Shown here in pieces: positions 40,324-46,218 of a stretch of DNA of 64,000 bases. The stretch is taken from NCBI GenBank assembly GCA_026398895.1, contig JAPLRZ010000042.1:1-64000 (forward strand), given 5' to 3'. The notes beneath the pieces are model-generated. The model was not told the DNA's origin. It saw only the letters and a list, made by a program, of their open reading frames with translations, and ran no database searches. The stretch is from Methylococcales bacterium (GTDB lineage: Bacteria; Pseudomonadota; Gammaproteobacteria; Methylococcales; Methylomonadaceae). How positions within the stretch are numbered: position 1 is the stretch's first letter; the number at the start of each line of letters is the position of its first letter. Made by a program: the position numbers and the translations under genes.

Positions 40324-40377
40324 GCCTGATTGTGCGATTATCGACTCATTCAAGGCTCACTATTTTGGAATTTTTAC

Positions 40378-41289
40378 ATGAAAATTAGAGTGTTAGGTTC
40401 AGGTGCAGGCGGTGGTTTTCCACAATGGAATTGCAACTGCCACAACTGTCACCGTATTCGCCATAATGAAATGAATGGCACAGCACGCACGCAATCTTCT
40501 ATTGCCGTCAGTACCGACAATAAAAACTGGCTGTTATTCAACACCTCGCCCGATATACGCGCTCAATTAGAAGCGTTTCCTGCGATGCAGCCGCAAAACG
40601 GTATTCGGGACACAGGCATTAAAGCTATTATGCTGATTGATAGCCAAATCGACCACACCACAGGTTTATTGATGCTACGCGAAGGCAAGCCGTTGGATAT
40701 TTACTGCACGGAAATGGTCAAGCAAGATTTAACCACAGGCTTTCCATTATTCACCATGCTGAAAGATTACTGCACCGTCAATCATCATCCCGTGCCTGTG
40801 GATGGAAGCAGCTTCACCATTCCTGCCATTGAAGATTTGCGCTTTTATACCCAAGCGTTAAAAAGTAAAGCACCGCCCTACTCTCCTCATCGTCATGATC
40901 CGCATGAAGGCGACAATATCGGCGTGATTATTGAGCAAATATCTACAGGCAAAAAAATGTTTTATTCACCTGGTTTGGGTGAAATAGAACCGCACGTTAT
41001 GGACGCGATGCAATCAGTTGATTGCTTGCTGGTGGATGGTACATTTTGGACAGATGACGAAATGGTCACGCAAGGTATTAGCCATAAAAAAGCCCGCGAA
41101 ATTGGGCATTTACCGCAATCAGGCGCAGGTGGCATGATAGACGTGTTAAACGGTGTCGCCAAAGCGCGTAAAATTTTGATACACATCAACAACACCAACC
41201 CGATTTTAGACGATGATTCTGAACAACGGAAAATCCTCGATGCCGCAGGTATTGAAGTCGCTTACGATGGTTTAGAAATTGATTTATAA
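40378..41289 (+). CDS. pqqB: PQQ biosynthesis protein PqqB
   Basis: The product is 303 aa from the ATG at 40378. A metallo-beta-lactamase-fold protein opens 'KIRVLGSGAGGGFPQWNCNCHNC' and has 'NTSPDIRAQLEA', 'DSQIDHTTGLLMLREG' (in place of HxHxDH), 'YSPGLGEIEPH' and 'GHLPQSGAGGMID'. PqqB has been shown to be an iron-dependent hydroxylase acting on the precursor. pqqC, pqqD and pqqE do not follow; IS debris does. Confidence 0.95.
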   Translation: MKIRVLGSGAGGGFPQWNCNCHNCHRIRHNEMNGTARTQSSIAVSTDNKNWLLFNTSPDIRAQLEAFPAMQPQNGIRDTGIKAIMLIDSQIDHTTGLLMLREGKPLDIYCTEMVKQDLTTGFPLFTMLKDYCTVNHHPVPVDGSSFTIPAIEDLRFYTQALKSKAPPYSPHRHDPHEGDNIGVIIEQISTGKKMFYSPGLGEIEPHVMDAMQSVDCLLVDGTFWTDDEMVTQGISHKKAREIGHLPQSGAGGMIDVLNGVAKARKILIHINNTNPILDDDSEQRKILDAAGIEVAYDGLEIDL

Positions 41290-41298
41290 ACGCTCAGA

Positions 41299-41327
41299 GT
41301 ACAAACCCTAGGTTTGTACGCTTTTTT
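41299..41327 (+). terminator. Terminator after pqqB
   Basis: The stem GTACAAACC / GGTTTGTAC with loop CTA and a following CTTTTTT tract begins 10 bp past the pqqB stop. Confidence 0.8.
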
Positions 41328-41364
41328 AAAAATGTAATGGCTTAAATCTATTACAACGACATGA

Positions 41365-41398
41365 ATGACTGCCAGTCCTTTAAAGGACTGGCAGTCAT
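41365..41398. repeat. Perfect 34-bp palindrome
   Basis: The arm ATGACTGCCAGTCCTTT is followed immediately by its complement. It matches the outer ends of the 220-bp element at 36451-36670 and may be a collapsed copy of that element. Confidence 0.75.
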
Positions 41399-41503
41399 AA
41401 AAATAACAGCTTTAATAAACCAACTTAAAAACGATTGAGGAAAAAATCATGCGATTATTGTGCGTTGAAGTGCCTTTAGTGCTGTTTTAAAAAGGAAGAT
41501 ATT

Positions 41504-41662
41504 ATGAACGACCAAGCCCGCAAATTGCTTGCTTTTGTTATTCATCATTATGGTGTCGATATTATTCAAACGCCAAAGCAGTTGCAGGCTTTGTTAAAAG
41601 ACCATGCCAAAGGACAATTCAAAAGACTGTGTCCTGCTATACAGCGTGCGTTGGCAGAGTGA
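41504..41662 (+). pseudogene. Truncated small ORF joined to IS sequence
   Basis: A 52-codon frame begins MNDQARKLLAFVIHHYG and continues 'VDIIQTPKQLQALLKDHAKG', preceded by AAGGAAG. The first ~38 residues resemble the short helical N-terminal module (x-x-YGxxLxxxPxxLxxLLxDxxxG) of some caspase/TPR-type proteins. From ~41625 the frame runs out of phase into transposase sequence, so the gene was probably cut by the IS. Confidence 0.4.
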
Positions 41663-41903
41663 GTTACTGTTCAAATTCTGGAAAAGTCACAGCAAACTGG
41701 GGCATTTCAACAGTGCTAACTCATGGCGCAGACTGTGCGAACTGTACGCGAAATTGCTCATCGTCATGATTCAGCATTGGATTTTCTTAACGGGTTTGTG
41801 GCACATTCCAGAACGCAGCCTTGTGAAAGGCGGACATTTCCTTTTGTTGATATACCAAAAAGCAAATAGCGGCTTTCATCGTAGGAATGGTCAGGGTCGC
41901 TAA
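41628..41903 (+). pseudogene. IS4-type transposase C-terminal fragment
   Basis: The frame 'LYSVRWQSELLFKFWKSHSKL' and 'RRLCELYAKLLIVMIQHWIFLTG' then 'RSLVKGGHFLL' matches the C-terminus of IS4-group DDE transposases, with the catalytic Glu in 'RWQSELLFK'. The 5' two thirds are missing. The piece sits between pqqB and unrelated genes, marking the point where the pqq operon was broken or ended. Confidence 0.65.
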
Positions 41904-42106
41904 CGCATGATGAGTAATCATCGGCAAATACTTCAGTGACTTCCAAAAAAGAAATGGCGTGTTTGCGTTGATTACTATTTCTTTGTTATCGTCTCATTCA
42001 ACCTCATGATTCAATCGAGTGGTGAAAACTATGCCGTGCGTTTTCCCGTTGTTGGGTGATGGGTTTCGCGTTGCTCTACCCATCTTACAATTGCCCATCT
42101 TACGAG
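41904..42106. repeat. Intergenic with REP-like palindrome
   Basis: Around 42051-42092, GATGGGTTTCGCGTTGCTCTACCCATC forms a hairpin (arms GATGGGT / ACCCATC), followed by a CCCATCTTAC direct repeat. The rest up to 42050 shows no gene. Confidence 0.45.
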
Positions 42107-42469
42107 TTACGGGTTAATTTGGTTGTTAATAATTATTGCAGGAGAGCTATTAGGAGACATCGGTTGTATCTTTGGTCGTACATAATCCTTGTCACTTTTA
42201 TCGACACACTCAAAATTTACAATTGCCTGTGCTCCAGCACCTACTCGAGAAATCTGAGTGTTACTAACAACAAGATATTTCTTTAAATCGGTGCAATGTT
42301 TGGCTCCAATTTCTGTAGCATTAGCAATAGCCCCTGCTCCACCAGGATCTATGGTAAATAGAGTTGAATGAGCTCTCGCCATAAAACTATCAGGTCCTGT
42401 TTGAACGACACCTGAGGTAGTACAACCACAAAGTAATAATATACTTAAATATATAAGTCTCGGCTTCAT
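42107..42469 (-). CDS. Small lipoprotein
   Basis: The product is 120 aa from the ATG at 42469 with AGGAG upstream. The signal ends at LLLCGC (lipobox). The mature part 'TGPDSFMARAHSTLFT' and 'GAKHCTDLKKYLVVSNTQ' resembles small phage- or cassette-borne lipoproteins, and no enzyme motif is visible. It lies directly downstream (minus strand) of the attC-like site, so it may be a second cassette or the resident neighbour. Confidence 0.65.
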   Translation of the reverse strand: MKPRLIYLSILLLCGCTTSGVVQTGPDSFMARAHSTLFTIDPGGAGAIANATEIGAKHCTDLKKYLVVSNTQISRVGAGAQAIVNFECVDKSDKDYVRPKIQPMSPNSSPAIIINNQINP

Positions 42470-42550
42470 CTGATACAAACTCCTAAATATTCGTAAATAT
42501 ACATGAGTACAGTGACGATAATAAATTTTTCTTGGAATGCTTTATCAATT

Positions 42551-42619
42551 GCCTAACGCACCTATGAGCGGTGATAAAGCGTGCAGCGCGGAAGCGTCCG
42601 CTCAATTGGCTGGTTAAGT
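42551..42619 (-). other. attC-like integron recombination site
   Basis: Read on the minus strand, the 69-bp stretch begins ACTTAAC (fits RYYYAAC) and ends GTTAGGC (fits GTTRRRY). Inside are inverted L boxes TGAGCGG / CCGCTCA and a short imperfect stem. The first box overlaps the stop codon of the HEPN-like gene (acT-TAA-C), exactly where an attC starts in a gene cassette. No integrase gene or second attC was recognised. Confidence 0.6.
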
Positions 42620-43204
42620 ATCGCTTTTGACTGTAGCCGATGAAGAACTAATTCCATGCGTGAAGGCTGGATGGGCAACTGTCGCCAGTTTATGAAGCTC
42701 AAGTATGGCTTTCTTTACTGCTTCCCGTAGTCGCTTTACCTCTGACCCTACACATAGCGACTCCCAGCTTGTCGGTAGGCGTTTGGCAATAAGCTCGTCA
42801 ATCACTTCGGGGGTTTCGAATACGACCTCAACTGCTTCAAGCTTTCCTGGTTTGGGATGAGCAAGTTGGTTTCGGAATTCGTGTAGTTCCTTTATTTCTT
42901 GGTAGGGACTTCTGCCTAGATCGATCTTTGCGCCAATTTTACCTGCTATACGTTTCAGCTTGTCTTTGGGATTTAAACTTTCCCCACTATCTAGCCAATC
43001 TGGGTCTACTTCGATGCTGACCTGATTTAGATAGGCTTCCCAAGCGAATGCTGTGAAGATCAGCACCGACATGAATTTCCAAGTAGAGCCGACAGGGTCT
43101 TCGTTCGCTTGTCTTTCGAGTACGTTGGCGGCGTGCCAAAGATCTGCGTAGGGTCGATCATCGCGCTCTTTGGTAATTACGGTATGTATTTTTTCGTTTG
43201 TCAT
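42614..43204 (-). CDS. HEPN-like protein, probable integron cassette gene
   Basis: The 196-aa helical protein has 'STWKFMSVLIFTAFAWEAYLNQV' (~40-62) and 'EIKELHEFRNQLAHPKPG' (~105-122). RNQLAH is an R-x4-H motif of the kind that forms the HEPN RNase site. No partner nucleotidyltransferase gene is adjacent. Its stop lies inside an attC-like site, so I infer a mobile cassette. Codon use is GC-richer than its neighbours, which agrees with transfer. Confidence 0.6.
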   Translation of the reverse strand: MTNEKIHTVITKERDDRPYADLWHAANVLERQANEDPVGSTWKFMSVLIFTAFAWEAYLNQVSIEVDPDWLDSGESLNPKDKLKRIAGKIGAKIDLGRSPYQEIKELHEFRNQLAHPKPGKLEAVEVVFETPEVIDELIAKRLPTSWESLCVGSEVKRLREAVKKAILELHKLATVAHPAFTHGISSSSATVKSDT

Positions 43205-43228
43205 CGTGAACCCTGACTCTAATTAGCC

Positions 43229-43316
43229 CTGTAGCTGCGTAAGTTGGGCTGGCGATTAGCCAACCAAACACCTTAAGCATTTGTTGGGTTGCGAAAAAGT
43301 CGCAACCCAACCCACA
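43229..43316. repeat. REP-like palindromes upstream of the HEPN-like gene
   Basis: GTTGGGCTGGCGATTAGCCAAC and GTTGGGTTGCG/AAAAAGT/CGCAACCCAAC form two adjacent hairpins between the formate dehydrogenase stop and the HEPN-like gene. The second may serve as a terminator for fdsA. Confidence 0.55.
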
Positions 43317-43320
43317 AAAG

Positions 43321-46218
43321 CTAAACCGCTTGTTGTGCCGCTTCCAGAAATTCTAATTGTTGCTCACTGAAATCCGCATAATTTTGTTGCCATTCTGACG
43401 GCGCGTGTACTTTGGCAATCTGTACCGCAGTGACTTTGTATTCAGGGCAGTTAGTTGCCCAATCTGAATTGTCGGTGGTGATGACATTCGCACCTGATTC
43501 AGGGAAATGGAAGGTGGTATACACTACGCCGACTTGTACGCGCTCAGACACTAAGGCGCGTAACACGGTTTCACCTGCACGGCTTTTAATACCTACCCAA
43601 TCACCATCAACTACACCACGGTCTTCGGCATCATGCGGATGGATTTCTAAACGGTCTTCGCTATGCCACGCATTGTTTTCCGTACGGCGGGTTTGTGCGC
43701 CGACGTTGTATTGCGACAAGATGCGTCCAGTGGTCAAAATCAGCGGGAACATTTTGGTGATTTTTTCAGCGGTTGCGACATATTCGGTCAACATGAACAG
43801 ACCTTTGCCGTTATCACGCAAGAAATGCTCCTCGTGCAGAGTGGGCGTACCTTCGGGTGCTTCTTCTGTGCATGGCCATTGCACACTGCCGAGGTCATCG
43901 ATTTTTTGATAACTGACATGGCTAAAAGTCGGTTTTAAGCTGGCAATTTCATCCATAATTTCTGATGGATGGCTGTAATTCATCGGATAACCCAAGGCGT
44001 TAGACAGCATTTGTGTCACTTCCCAATCGGCGTAAGTCGCTAACGGTTTCATCACTTTGCGCACAGGTGAAATACGGCGTTCTGCGTTGGTAAATGTACC
44101 GTCTTTTTCCAGAAATGATGAACCAGGTAAGAAAACGTGGGCAAATTTTGCGGTTTCATTCAAGAAAATATCTTGGACAATAACGCATTCCATCGCACGC
44201 AACGCGGCATGAACGTGTTTAATGTCGGGGTCAGATTGGGCAATGTCTTCGCCTTCACAATACAGCCCTAAGAAGCTACCATCAAGCGCGGCATCAAACA
44301 TATTAGGAATGCGTAACCCAGGTTCGCCGCTCAGATCAGCTTGCCATGCGTCTTCAAATAAAGCACGAGTGACAGGATCAGCGACATTGCGATAACCAGG
44401 GAATTCATGCGGAAATGAACCCATATCGCATGAACCTTGAACGTTGTTTTGTCCGCGTAATGGATTGACACCCACGCCGCTACGTCCTAAATTACCTGTT
44501 GCCATTGCTAAGTTGGCAATACCGATAACCATTGTTGAACCTTGGCTGTGTTCAGTCACGCCTAAGCCGTAGTAAATCGCGCCATTTTTCTCAGTGGCAT
44601 ATAAACGGGCGGCAGCTCTAATGTCAGCGGCAGGAACACCTGTAATCGCTTCACTGGCTTCAGGTGAATTTTTATCTTGAGCGATAAATTTACGCCATTT
44701 TTCAAACGATGCAACATCACAACGCGCTTTGACAAATTCTTCATCAACCAAGCCTTCTGTTACCACTGTGTAGGCTAACGCATTGATTAACGCGACGTTA
44801 GTGCTGGGGCGTAGTTTCAAATGGTAGTCAGCATGAACGTGTGGCGATTTTTTCACTAAATCAATTTCGCGTGGATCAACGACAATCAATTTCGCACCTT
44901 GACGTAGGCGTTTTTTCATCATCGAACCAAACACGGGATGACCGTCAGTTGGATTTGCACCGATGACTAAAATGACATCAGAATCCATCACCGAATCAAA
45001 ATCTTGCGTACCTGAGGCTTCACCAAAGGTTTTCTTTAAGCCGTAACCTGTGGGTGAATGGCATACACGCGCACAAGTATCGACGTTGTTATTACCAAAA
45101 CCTGCACGAATTAATTTTTGTACTAAATAGGTTTCTTCGTTAGTGCAACGTGAGGAAGTAATACCGCCGATAGAATCTTTGCCGTATTTGGCTTGGATAC
45201 GTCTTAATTCAGACGCAGCGTGATTAATCGCTTCTTCCCAGCTGACTTCTTGCCATGCGTCTTTGATACTGGCACGAATCATGGGTTTAGTAATACGGTC
45301 TTTATGCGTTGCATAACCAAAGGCAAAACGCCCTTTCACACAGGAATGCCCGTGATTAGCTTTGCCGTCTTTATGCGGCACCATACGAATGACTTGATCA
45401 CCTTTCATTTCGGCACGGAACGAACAGCCGACACCACAATACGCACAAGTGGTGATAATCGCGTGTTCGGGTTGACCGTTATCAATGACTGATTTTTCCA
45501 TCAAGGTGGCTGTGGGACAAGCTTGCACACACGCGCCACAGGAGACGCATTCTGAACTCAAAAAGTCTTGGTTTTGACTGGGCGATACTTTGGAATCAAA
45601 GCCGCGTCCGTCGATAGTCAATGCAAATGTGCCTTGGGTTTCTTCACAGGCGCGAACACAGCGTGAGCAAACGATACATTTGCTAGGATCAAAACTAAAG
45701 TACGGGTTGCTTTCGTCTTTCTTGGCATCCAAATGGGTGGTGACAGGTTTATAACGCACTTCCCGCAAACCCACCGCGCCTGCCATGTCTTGCAGTTCAC
45801 AATCGCCATTCGCTGAACAGGTTAAGCAATCTAGCGGATGATCAGAAATATATAGTTCCATCACACCGCGACGTACATCAGCGAGTTTTTGGTTTTGCGT
45901 GACCACTTTTAGACCTTCAGCAACAGGCGTGGTACAAGAGGCAGGCATCCCTCGGCCGCCTTCAATTTGCACAACACATAAACGGCAAGAACCAAACGGT
46001 TCAATGCTATCAGTTGCGCATAACTTGGGAATTTCAATACCTATACTTGCAGCCGCTCGCATAACAGACGTGCCAACGGGGGCGGTAACTTTAAAGCCGT
46101 CAATTTCTAAGTTGACAGTCTGTGTGGCAGTACTGGCGGGTGTGCCAAAATCTTTTTCTTTACTCATGCTCATTGCGGGATTCCTCGTATCAGTTGGCTT
46201 GTTATCTGTTGTGTTCAC
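43321..46218 (-). CDS. fdsA: NAD-dependent formate dehydrogenase, molybdopterin (alpha) subunit
   Basis: The product is 965 aa. The N-terminal [2Fe-2S] domain has 'CRLCVVQIEGG' and neighbouring Cys, then a His-Cys cluster 'HPLDCLTCSANGDCELQ'. Two [4Fe-4S] motifs 'CIVCSRCVRAC' and 'CVSCGACVQAC' follow. The bis-PGD catalytic part has a [4Fe-4S] 'CAYCGVGC' and the Mo-ligand Cys in 'CARVCHSPTGYGL'. It oxidises formate to CO2, the last step of C1 oxidation in methylotrophs. An alternative start (MSMSKEKD) lies 16 codons in. The beta, gamma and delta subunits (fdsBGD) are not adjacent. Confidence 0.93.
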   Translation of the reverse strand: MNTTDNKPTDTRNPAMSMSKEKDFGTPASTATQTVNLEIDGFKVTAPVGTSVMRAAASIGIEIPKLCATDSIEPFGSCRLCVVQIEGGRGMPASCTTPVAEGLKVVTQNQKLADVRRGVMELYISDHPLDCLTCSANGDCELQDMAGAVGLREVRYKPVTTHLDAKKDESNPYFSFDPSKCIVCSRCVRACEETQGTFALTIDGRGFDSKVSPSQNQDFLSSECVSCGACVQACPTATLMEKSVIDNGQPEHAIITTCAYCGVGCSFRAEMKGDQVIRMVPHKDGKANHGHSCVKGRFAFGYATHKDRITKPMIRASIKDAWQEVSWEEAINHAASELRRIQAKYGKDSIGGITSSRCTNEETYLVQKLIRAGFGNNNVDTCARVCHSPTGYGLKKTFGEASGTQDFDSVMDSDVILVIGANPTDGHPVFGSMMKKRLRQGAKLIVVDPREIDLVKKSPHVHADYHLKLRPSTNVALINALAYTVVTEGLVDEEFVKARCDVASFEKWRKFIAQDKNSPEASEAITGVPAADIRAAARLYATEKNGAIYYGLGVTEHSQGSTMVIGIANLAMATGNLGRSGVGVNPLRGQNNVQGSCDMGSFPHEFPGYRNVADPVTRALFEDAWQADLSGEPGLRIPNMFDAALDGSFLGLYCEGEDIAQSDPDIKHVHAALRAMECVIVQDIFLNETAKFAHVFLPGSSFLEKDGTFTNAERRISPVRKVMKPLATYADWEVTQMLSNALGYPMNYSHPSEIMDEIASLKPTFSHVSYQKIDDLGSVQWPCTEEAPEGTPTLHEEHFLRDNGKGLFMLTEYVATAEKITKMFPLILTTGRILSQYNVGAQTRRTENNAWHSEDRLEIHPHDAEDRGVVDGDWVGIKSRAGETVLRALVSERVQVGVVYTTFHFPESGANVITTDNSDWATNCPEYKVTAVQIAKVHAPSEWQQNYADFSEQQLEFLEAAQQAV

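Follow-up and report, generated by a model that had tools for sequence, protein, structure and literature searches.

What is an integron recombination site doing at the end of a single gene, in a genome in which no integron can be detected? This question is raised by a 64,000-nucleotide stretch of Methylococcales DNA (hereafter the window), in which a sequence-only reading had noticed a HEPN-like gene ending in an attC-like site. We consider, with a probability of roughly 85%, that the locus is a relic single-gene integron cassette (gene plus attC), which lies outside any integron and codes for a HEPN RNase of the toxin or phage-defence kind. It lies downstream of a formate dehydrogenase gene, with a repeat element on either side, and comprises the following features (R1 and R2 are the attC covariance models described below):

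42551..42619, minus strand: attC site, with R'' ACTTAAC, L'' with GAGCGG, L' with CCGCTC and R' GTTAGGC (sequence reading plus R1 and R2 scores)
42613..42619, minus strand: R'' box ACTTAAC, which contains the stop codon of the HEPN gene (sequence reading)
42598..42603, minus strand: L'' box core GAGCGG (sequence reading; paired in the R1 alignment)
42566..42571, minus strand: L' box core CCGCTC (sequence reading; paired in the R1 alignment)
42551..42557, minus strand: R' box GTTAGGC (sequence reading)
42614..43204, minus strand: gene for a predicted single-domain HEPN protein of 196 aa, RNQLAH at residues 111-116 (predicted fold and motif)
42557..43222, minus strand: the cassette as inferred; its 5' border, placed near 43222, is a guess, as the expected complementarity to R'' was tested and is absent
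42107..42478, minus strand: lipoprotein-like gene just past the R' box, like the HEPN gene apparently foreign to the genus; it may be a second cassette whose attC was lost
43231..43320, no strand assigned: repeat family 1, beside the formate dehydrogenase gene and kept there in part of the genus; it marks one border of the foreign stretch
42056..42106, no strand assigned: repeat family 2, CGTAAGATGGGTAGAGC type; the other border of the foreign stretch

The anatomy that had been described for the site, namely 69 bp with RYYYAAC and GTTRRRY ends, inner complementary boxes and a stop codon inside, can be read directly in the sequence. The site runs over 69 nt from ACTTAAC (42619-42613) to GTTAGGC (42557-42551) on the minus strand; these R'' and R' boxes fit the two consensus ends and are paired at 6 of 7 positions in the R1 alignment, one of the pairs being G-U, while the inner boxes GAGCGG (42603-42598) and CCGCTC (42571-42566) are complementary to each other. 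The L''/L' stem is present with its unpaired L'' base and a family-like spacing to the R boxes, and the R1 match is full-length (1-88 of 88) with the outer L pairs kept. The HEPN gene (42614-43204) ends with ACT TAA, its stop TAA lying inside the R'' box, and gene and attC share one orientation (one ORF, stop in R''). In integrons the recombination point is located after the G of the R' box, here GTTAGGC. A scan for such box-and-stem anatomy in loose form (5.5 or more pairs between the R boxes, a stem of 6 or more, a span of 55-141 nt) found 2 places in the window, while 40 first-order Markov simulations of it averaged 0.475, 16 of them having at least one, and the stability of the hairpin is ordinary compared with shuffles (z -0.31 and -0.44). 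Given these counts and the unremarkable folding, the anatomy alone is within chance; it is the covariance models, not the boxes, that raise the site above it.

R1 was derived from 21 attC sites of family integron arrays, excluding the window site; they were chosen by their boxes and stems from 20 stretches beside family integron integrases. Alignment A1 was used for training, a MAFFT alignment (A2) being poorer and set aside, and the pairs of the training set show strong covariation, with 92.5% of cells paired and 54 two-sided cells where shuffles gave 16.2. The second model, R2, comprises 113 family attC sites and is not independent of R1, since it was built from R1's matches. The window site obtained 31.1 bits from R1 (E=4.1e-5; unfiltered, full length, on the gene's strand) against 12.6 bits for the runner-up in the window (E=0.84), and 30.1 bits from R2 (E=1.2e-4) against 11.8 bits (E=1.9), all E-values being rough because the calibration was short. 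No second attC was found in the 64-kb window below E=0.84 with R1 or 1.9 with R2, and an Rfam scan of the window gave no match at gathering scores. The proposed attC identity is thus upheld by a covariance check run with models of the host family, both of which place the site far above everything else in the window. The attC sites of family arrays score from about 84 bits downward with R1, and in view of its modest score the window site is judged to be a weaker, perhaps decayed attC.

The site had also been called solitary, and this holds, because no integron integrase was found in its own genome (3.6 Mb in 75 contigs, 91.5% complete) with the TIGR02249 profile; that profile matched two loci, both below its cut-off, and the same kind of match occurs in 14 of 14 control genomes. 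IntI is detected at E<=1e-60 in 95 of 201 genomes of the family, covering 24 of 29 genera, and in none of the 8 genomes of the window's genus. In the whole genome, with 150 of 339 candidates scored, R1 reported the window site and one other at E<=10, C13:7817-7872 (38.6 bits). This second isolated attC (L081:1501-1556, minus strand) scores above the window site; a 93-aa ORF begins 20 bp past its R' box, as in a cassette, with no attC at the end of the ORF, and repeat family 2 is located on the far side of the ORF. One further attC-like site was found in the genus (8 genomes), at G006:C72:226-291 (26.3 bits by R1, 39.8 by R2); it is isolated, has the R' box GTTATGC and lies near a gene that by eye resembles polA (L083:226-291). 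All three of these sites are single. The earlier suggestion to look for intI and for similar sites led to a genome with no detectable intI, to one other attC in the same genome and one in another genome of the genus, and to many in the arrays of the family. The window contains one attC in 64 kb, whereas a CALIN is a cluster of two or more attC sites that lacks intI and a complete integron has intI in the genome. According to PMC9024848, IntegronFinder 2 by default requires at least two attC sites for a CALIN, and under this rule a single site such as ours would be left unreported. An attC model for Methylococcales has already been published, as stated in PMC8352920.

The gene itself belongs to a family of which several members are carried by cassettes. 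A search of the contigs of named genomes with the single protein found no relative; a four-sequence profile found 20 loci in these genomes and, within the family, matched 5 of 201 genomes, and a 21-row profile matched 8 of 369 genomes of the class, the own genome being included in both counts. The relatives are 24-34% identical to the window protein and span several proteobacterial classes and one Myxococcota-assigned MAG, some of them without attC; within the genus none was found. Both attC models were applied to 31 distinct relatives, a set that omits L109 (on the contig of L015) and L016/L087 (on that of L108), and a match on a Sphingomonas plasmid stands outside the attC count. In 7 of the 31, R2 called an attC on the same strand within 5 nt of the stop codon: L014 (a relative from the order), L092 (Gammaproteobacteria MAG), L096 (Betaproteobacteria MAG) and L099 (Lampropedia hyalina), which have attC on both sides, as well as L089 (a relative from the family), L095 (Deltaproteobacteria MAG) and L108 (Methylococcaceae MAG). 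The offset between stop codon and attC in the window is the same as in four of these seven. In L097 (Nitrosomonadaceae MAG) the gene starts 10 nt past an attC and has none at its end, and in the other 23 relatives R2 called no attC at the gene. L114, L112 and L094 have ends that look attC-like or attI-like by eye; both models left them uncalled, and they were not counted. On the family tree (27 rows, most deep branches weak) the attC label is scattered, with 7 changes against a shuffled mean of 7.8, at least 2 of them forced by starred branches.

Five of the seven attC-ended relatives have a cassette start that is the complement of their own R'' over 7-9 nt, which 0-2 of 1000 shuffles equalled in each case, and this is a sign of a complete cassette in those five. 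The same test failed for L089 and L108, and also for the window gene, where the longest run is 3 nt and 395 of 1000 shuffles did as well; the 5' border of the window cassette is therefore decayed or located elsewhere. About 150 bp from the HEPN cassette of L089 lies a frameshifted N-terminal fragment of intI (L089:1157-1314) that points away from it, for which reason L089 is probably a first cassette. In the Deltaproteobacteria MAG the R' box GTTGGGT of the HEPN cassette attC lies in a GTAGGTTGGGTT...CAACCCAAC repeat (L095:3068-3160), and it looks as if such repeats could serve as targets of cassette insertion.

The surroundings of the window cassette had been described as full of IS debris and repeats, and both are indeed present. 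Remains of a transposase occupy 41604-41903 (DDE_Tnp_1, E=1.7e-5), and two repeat families of the genus, GTTGGGTTGCGAAA... (43231-43320) and CGTAAGATGGGTAGAGC... (42056-42106), flank the foreign block; the former has more than 20 matches in the own genome. Among the matches listed for the 7 other genomes of the genus, none touches 42107-43213; they begin at the repeat beside the formate dehydrogenase gene, and judged by these comparisons the block appears to be foreign to the genus. The lipoprotein-like gene is likewise absent from the rest of the genus and has a distant copy (28%) in its own genome. The interval behind the formate dehydrogenase gene varies, with a gene close by in G006 that by eye resembles fdhD and other small ORFs in G003, G005 and G007. 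A search of the genus for an exact empty site found none, the relatives carrying other material there; as the content of the place differs from genome to genome, no junction is readable. In the window (40330-43321) a pqqB-like gene is found near the spot of the relatives' fdhD-like gene, with the transposase debris between, a placement that is probably a rearrangement. The 95 bp at 41838-41932 recur with 96% identity inside a small gene of G007 (L019:713-807; by eye BrnT-like), which lies behind the same formate dehydrogenase gene. The lipoprotein-like gene is flanked on either side by GGCAATTG with (A)TAA after it, at 42541-42554 and 42084-42097 on the minus strand, which may be due to chance.

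How could the cassette have come to this place? It would have arrived by IntI-mediated recombination, either within an array that has since decayed or on its own, by insertion at a genomic site. The former, that these are remains of a longer array in which the lipoprotein-like gene past the R' box was a second cassette, its attC and the integrase having been lost, is quite conceivable, if a little short of an even chance. GTTAGGC stands directly before the lipoprotein-like gene, as is usual for the start of a next cassette, this gene shares its absence from the genus with the HEPN gene, and the L081 attC of the same genome has the same layout (a short ORF 20 bp past the R' box, no attC at its end). 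Decayed integrons without intI are common elsewhere, for instance in Xanthomonas, according to PMC12444791. On the other hand, the homologues of the lipoprotein gene, L085 and L086, have no attC, the start of the gene is about 75-80 bp away from the R' box, and neither R1 nor R2 called an attC at its end. The latter, a single cassette inserted by IntI acting in trans at an attG-type site of the genome, is doubtful. It would suit one attC with no array in a genus without intI, and experiments in E. coli have shown cassettes inserting at such sites (Loot et al. 2024, as cited in PMC12444791), but the presumed start of the cassette is unrecognisable, and the R' box is a full GTTAGGC, which would be less expected at a random genomic target.

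With respect to the protein, the RxxxxH motif noticed in the sequence reads RNQLAH (residues 111-116), and eight residues are invariant in 21 sequences (F53, E56, A57, N60, K82, R111, A115 and H116). In the alignment of these sequences (A5) the R of the motif is followed by N or D, and the upstream acidic residue E56 is invariant. Known domain profiles hardly recognise the family: Pfam gave only HEPN_Swt1 (E=0.18) for the window protein, NCBIfam gave no match, and the PADLOC profile CARF_HEPN matched it weakly (E=0.0079) and 3 of 21 family members, among which MAE_28990 matched 5 and RiboL-PSP 4, also weakly. The AlphaFold2 model, computed from a 21-row alignment, has a pLDDT of 91.8 and shows short beta strands at either terminus. 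The top Foldseek hit was a HEPN-MNT complex (E=0.071, probability 0.99), no PDB match reaching E<=0.001. VIA-align on the Foldseek candidates gave a best Z of 11.1 (sacsin HEPN; 123 residues at 3.0 A), a value that taken alone is soft evidence for helical bundles; the top 25 rows, with Z from 6.8 to 11.1, are HEPN or HEPN-type proteins throughout. Some of these rows, e.g. 1jog, 1wty, 1ylm, Csm6 and AbiA, are ones that we take to be of the HEPN class. For part of them the class is given in PMC3710099. It is the uniformity of these 25 rows, together with the RxxxxH motif, on which the fold assignment is based, and the earlier impression of a HEPN-like gene with such a motif is borne out: the window protein is supported as a HEPN domain by its predicted four-helix fold and the invariant motif.

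Could such a protein be a non-catalytic or substrate-binding HEPN, of the type that partners a nucleotidyltransferase, and not an RNase? The best fold matches do include MNT-partner HEPNs and the sacsin HEPN, and RNase activity is a prediction; nevertheless we find this unlikely, as the R and H of the motif do not vary among 21 relatives and the R is followed by N or D, in agreement with the rule given in PMC3710099 for active HEPN RNases (Rx4-6H with a polar residue after the R, plus an upstream acidic residue), and there is no other gene between the attC and the repeat. By far the poorest reading, which we consider highly improbable, is that of a chance palindrome or terminator-like hairpin at the end of a gene that was never in an integron: about 0.5 occurrences of the box anatomy by itself are expected in 64 kb, the hairpin is of ordinary stability and the 5' border of the cassette is unrecognisable, but the covariance score is far over that of the rest of the window with one other match in the whole genome, and the site sits on the stop codon, at an offset shared with 4 of 7 attC-ended homologues, all seven of which have theirs within 5 nt.

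If the locus is a relic cassette for a HEPN RNase, the protein would be an endoribonuclease of the metal-independent HEPN type and would stop growth upon a trigger, e.g. phage infection or stress. The HEPN gene is the sole gene of its cassette and has no partner gene; such a partner-free RNase may function in growth arrest or abortive infection, and as the gene travels alone, its control must be built in, exerted via expression, or come from elsewhere. Integrons are reportedly discussed as stores of phage-defence genes (by, it is said, Darracq et al. 2025, Kieffer et al. 2025 and Getz et al. 2025). Tentatively, and with less than even confidence, we propose an undescribed family of partner-free HEPN RNases that passes from one bacterial class to another, for the most part in integron cassettes, a one-gene module of phage defence or dormancy, which was kept here as a resident defence gene after loss of the integron. 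A genome without a detectable integron carries a stray HEPN cassette, whose distant relatives are found in cassettes of quite different bacteria. With attC-bearing members in Methylococcales-type, beta-, gamma- and delta-type bacteria, and lying outside the curated family models, the family is a compact candidate for testing. Lone attC sites, which the standard tool skips by default, can be recognised by an attC model of the host family together with the cassette habits of homologues.

HEPN proteins borne by integrons are known, one example in PMC3548836 and PMC3710099 being Vpc_cass2 (PDB 3JRT), and RNase-driven dormancy was proposed for integron HEPNs by Anantharaman et al. 2013 (PMC3710099). 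As described there, Vpc_cass2 resembles our case in being an integron cassette that codes for a stand-alone HEPN-type helical bundle, with RxxxxH listed as conserved. Searches with the family profile and with one member gave no match to 3JRT up to E=10, and 3JRT is absent from the VIA-align rows listed. Among the papers listed by our literature search on integrons with HEPN or phage defence, no title or abstract describes the family of the window gene. The kind is thus already known from Vpc_cass2, and the window gene appears to be a sequence-distinct new addition to it. Its family differs from Vpc_cass2, to which no sequence similarity was found, in occurring in several proteobacterial classes and a Myxococcota-assigned MAG, also without attC. 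The locus resembles CALINs and the single-attC remnants among the IntegronFinder classes in having attC without a neighbouring integrase; CALINs have by default at least two attC sites, whereas here there is one per locus at two loci of the genome. With the Methylococcales-type chromosomal integrons of the same family the window site shares the layout and spacing of its attC, although in its genus intI is absent from 8 of 8 genomes searched. Finally, the fold is shared with HEPN proteins of abortive infection and toxin-antitoxin systems (AbiA, 8oz7, Z 9.2; AbiV, 9bj6, Z 6.2; HEPN-MNT toxins, about 8-10); unlike these, the window protein stands on its own, with neither partner gene nor extra domain, and its predicted bundle is framed by short terminal beta strands.
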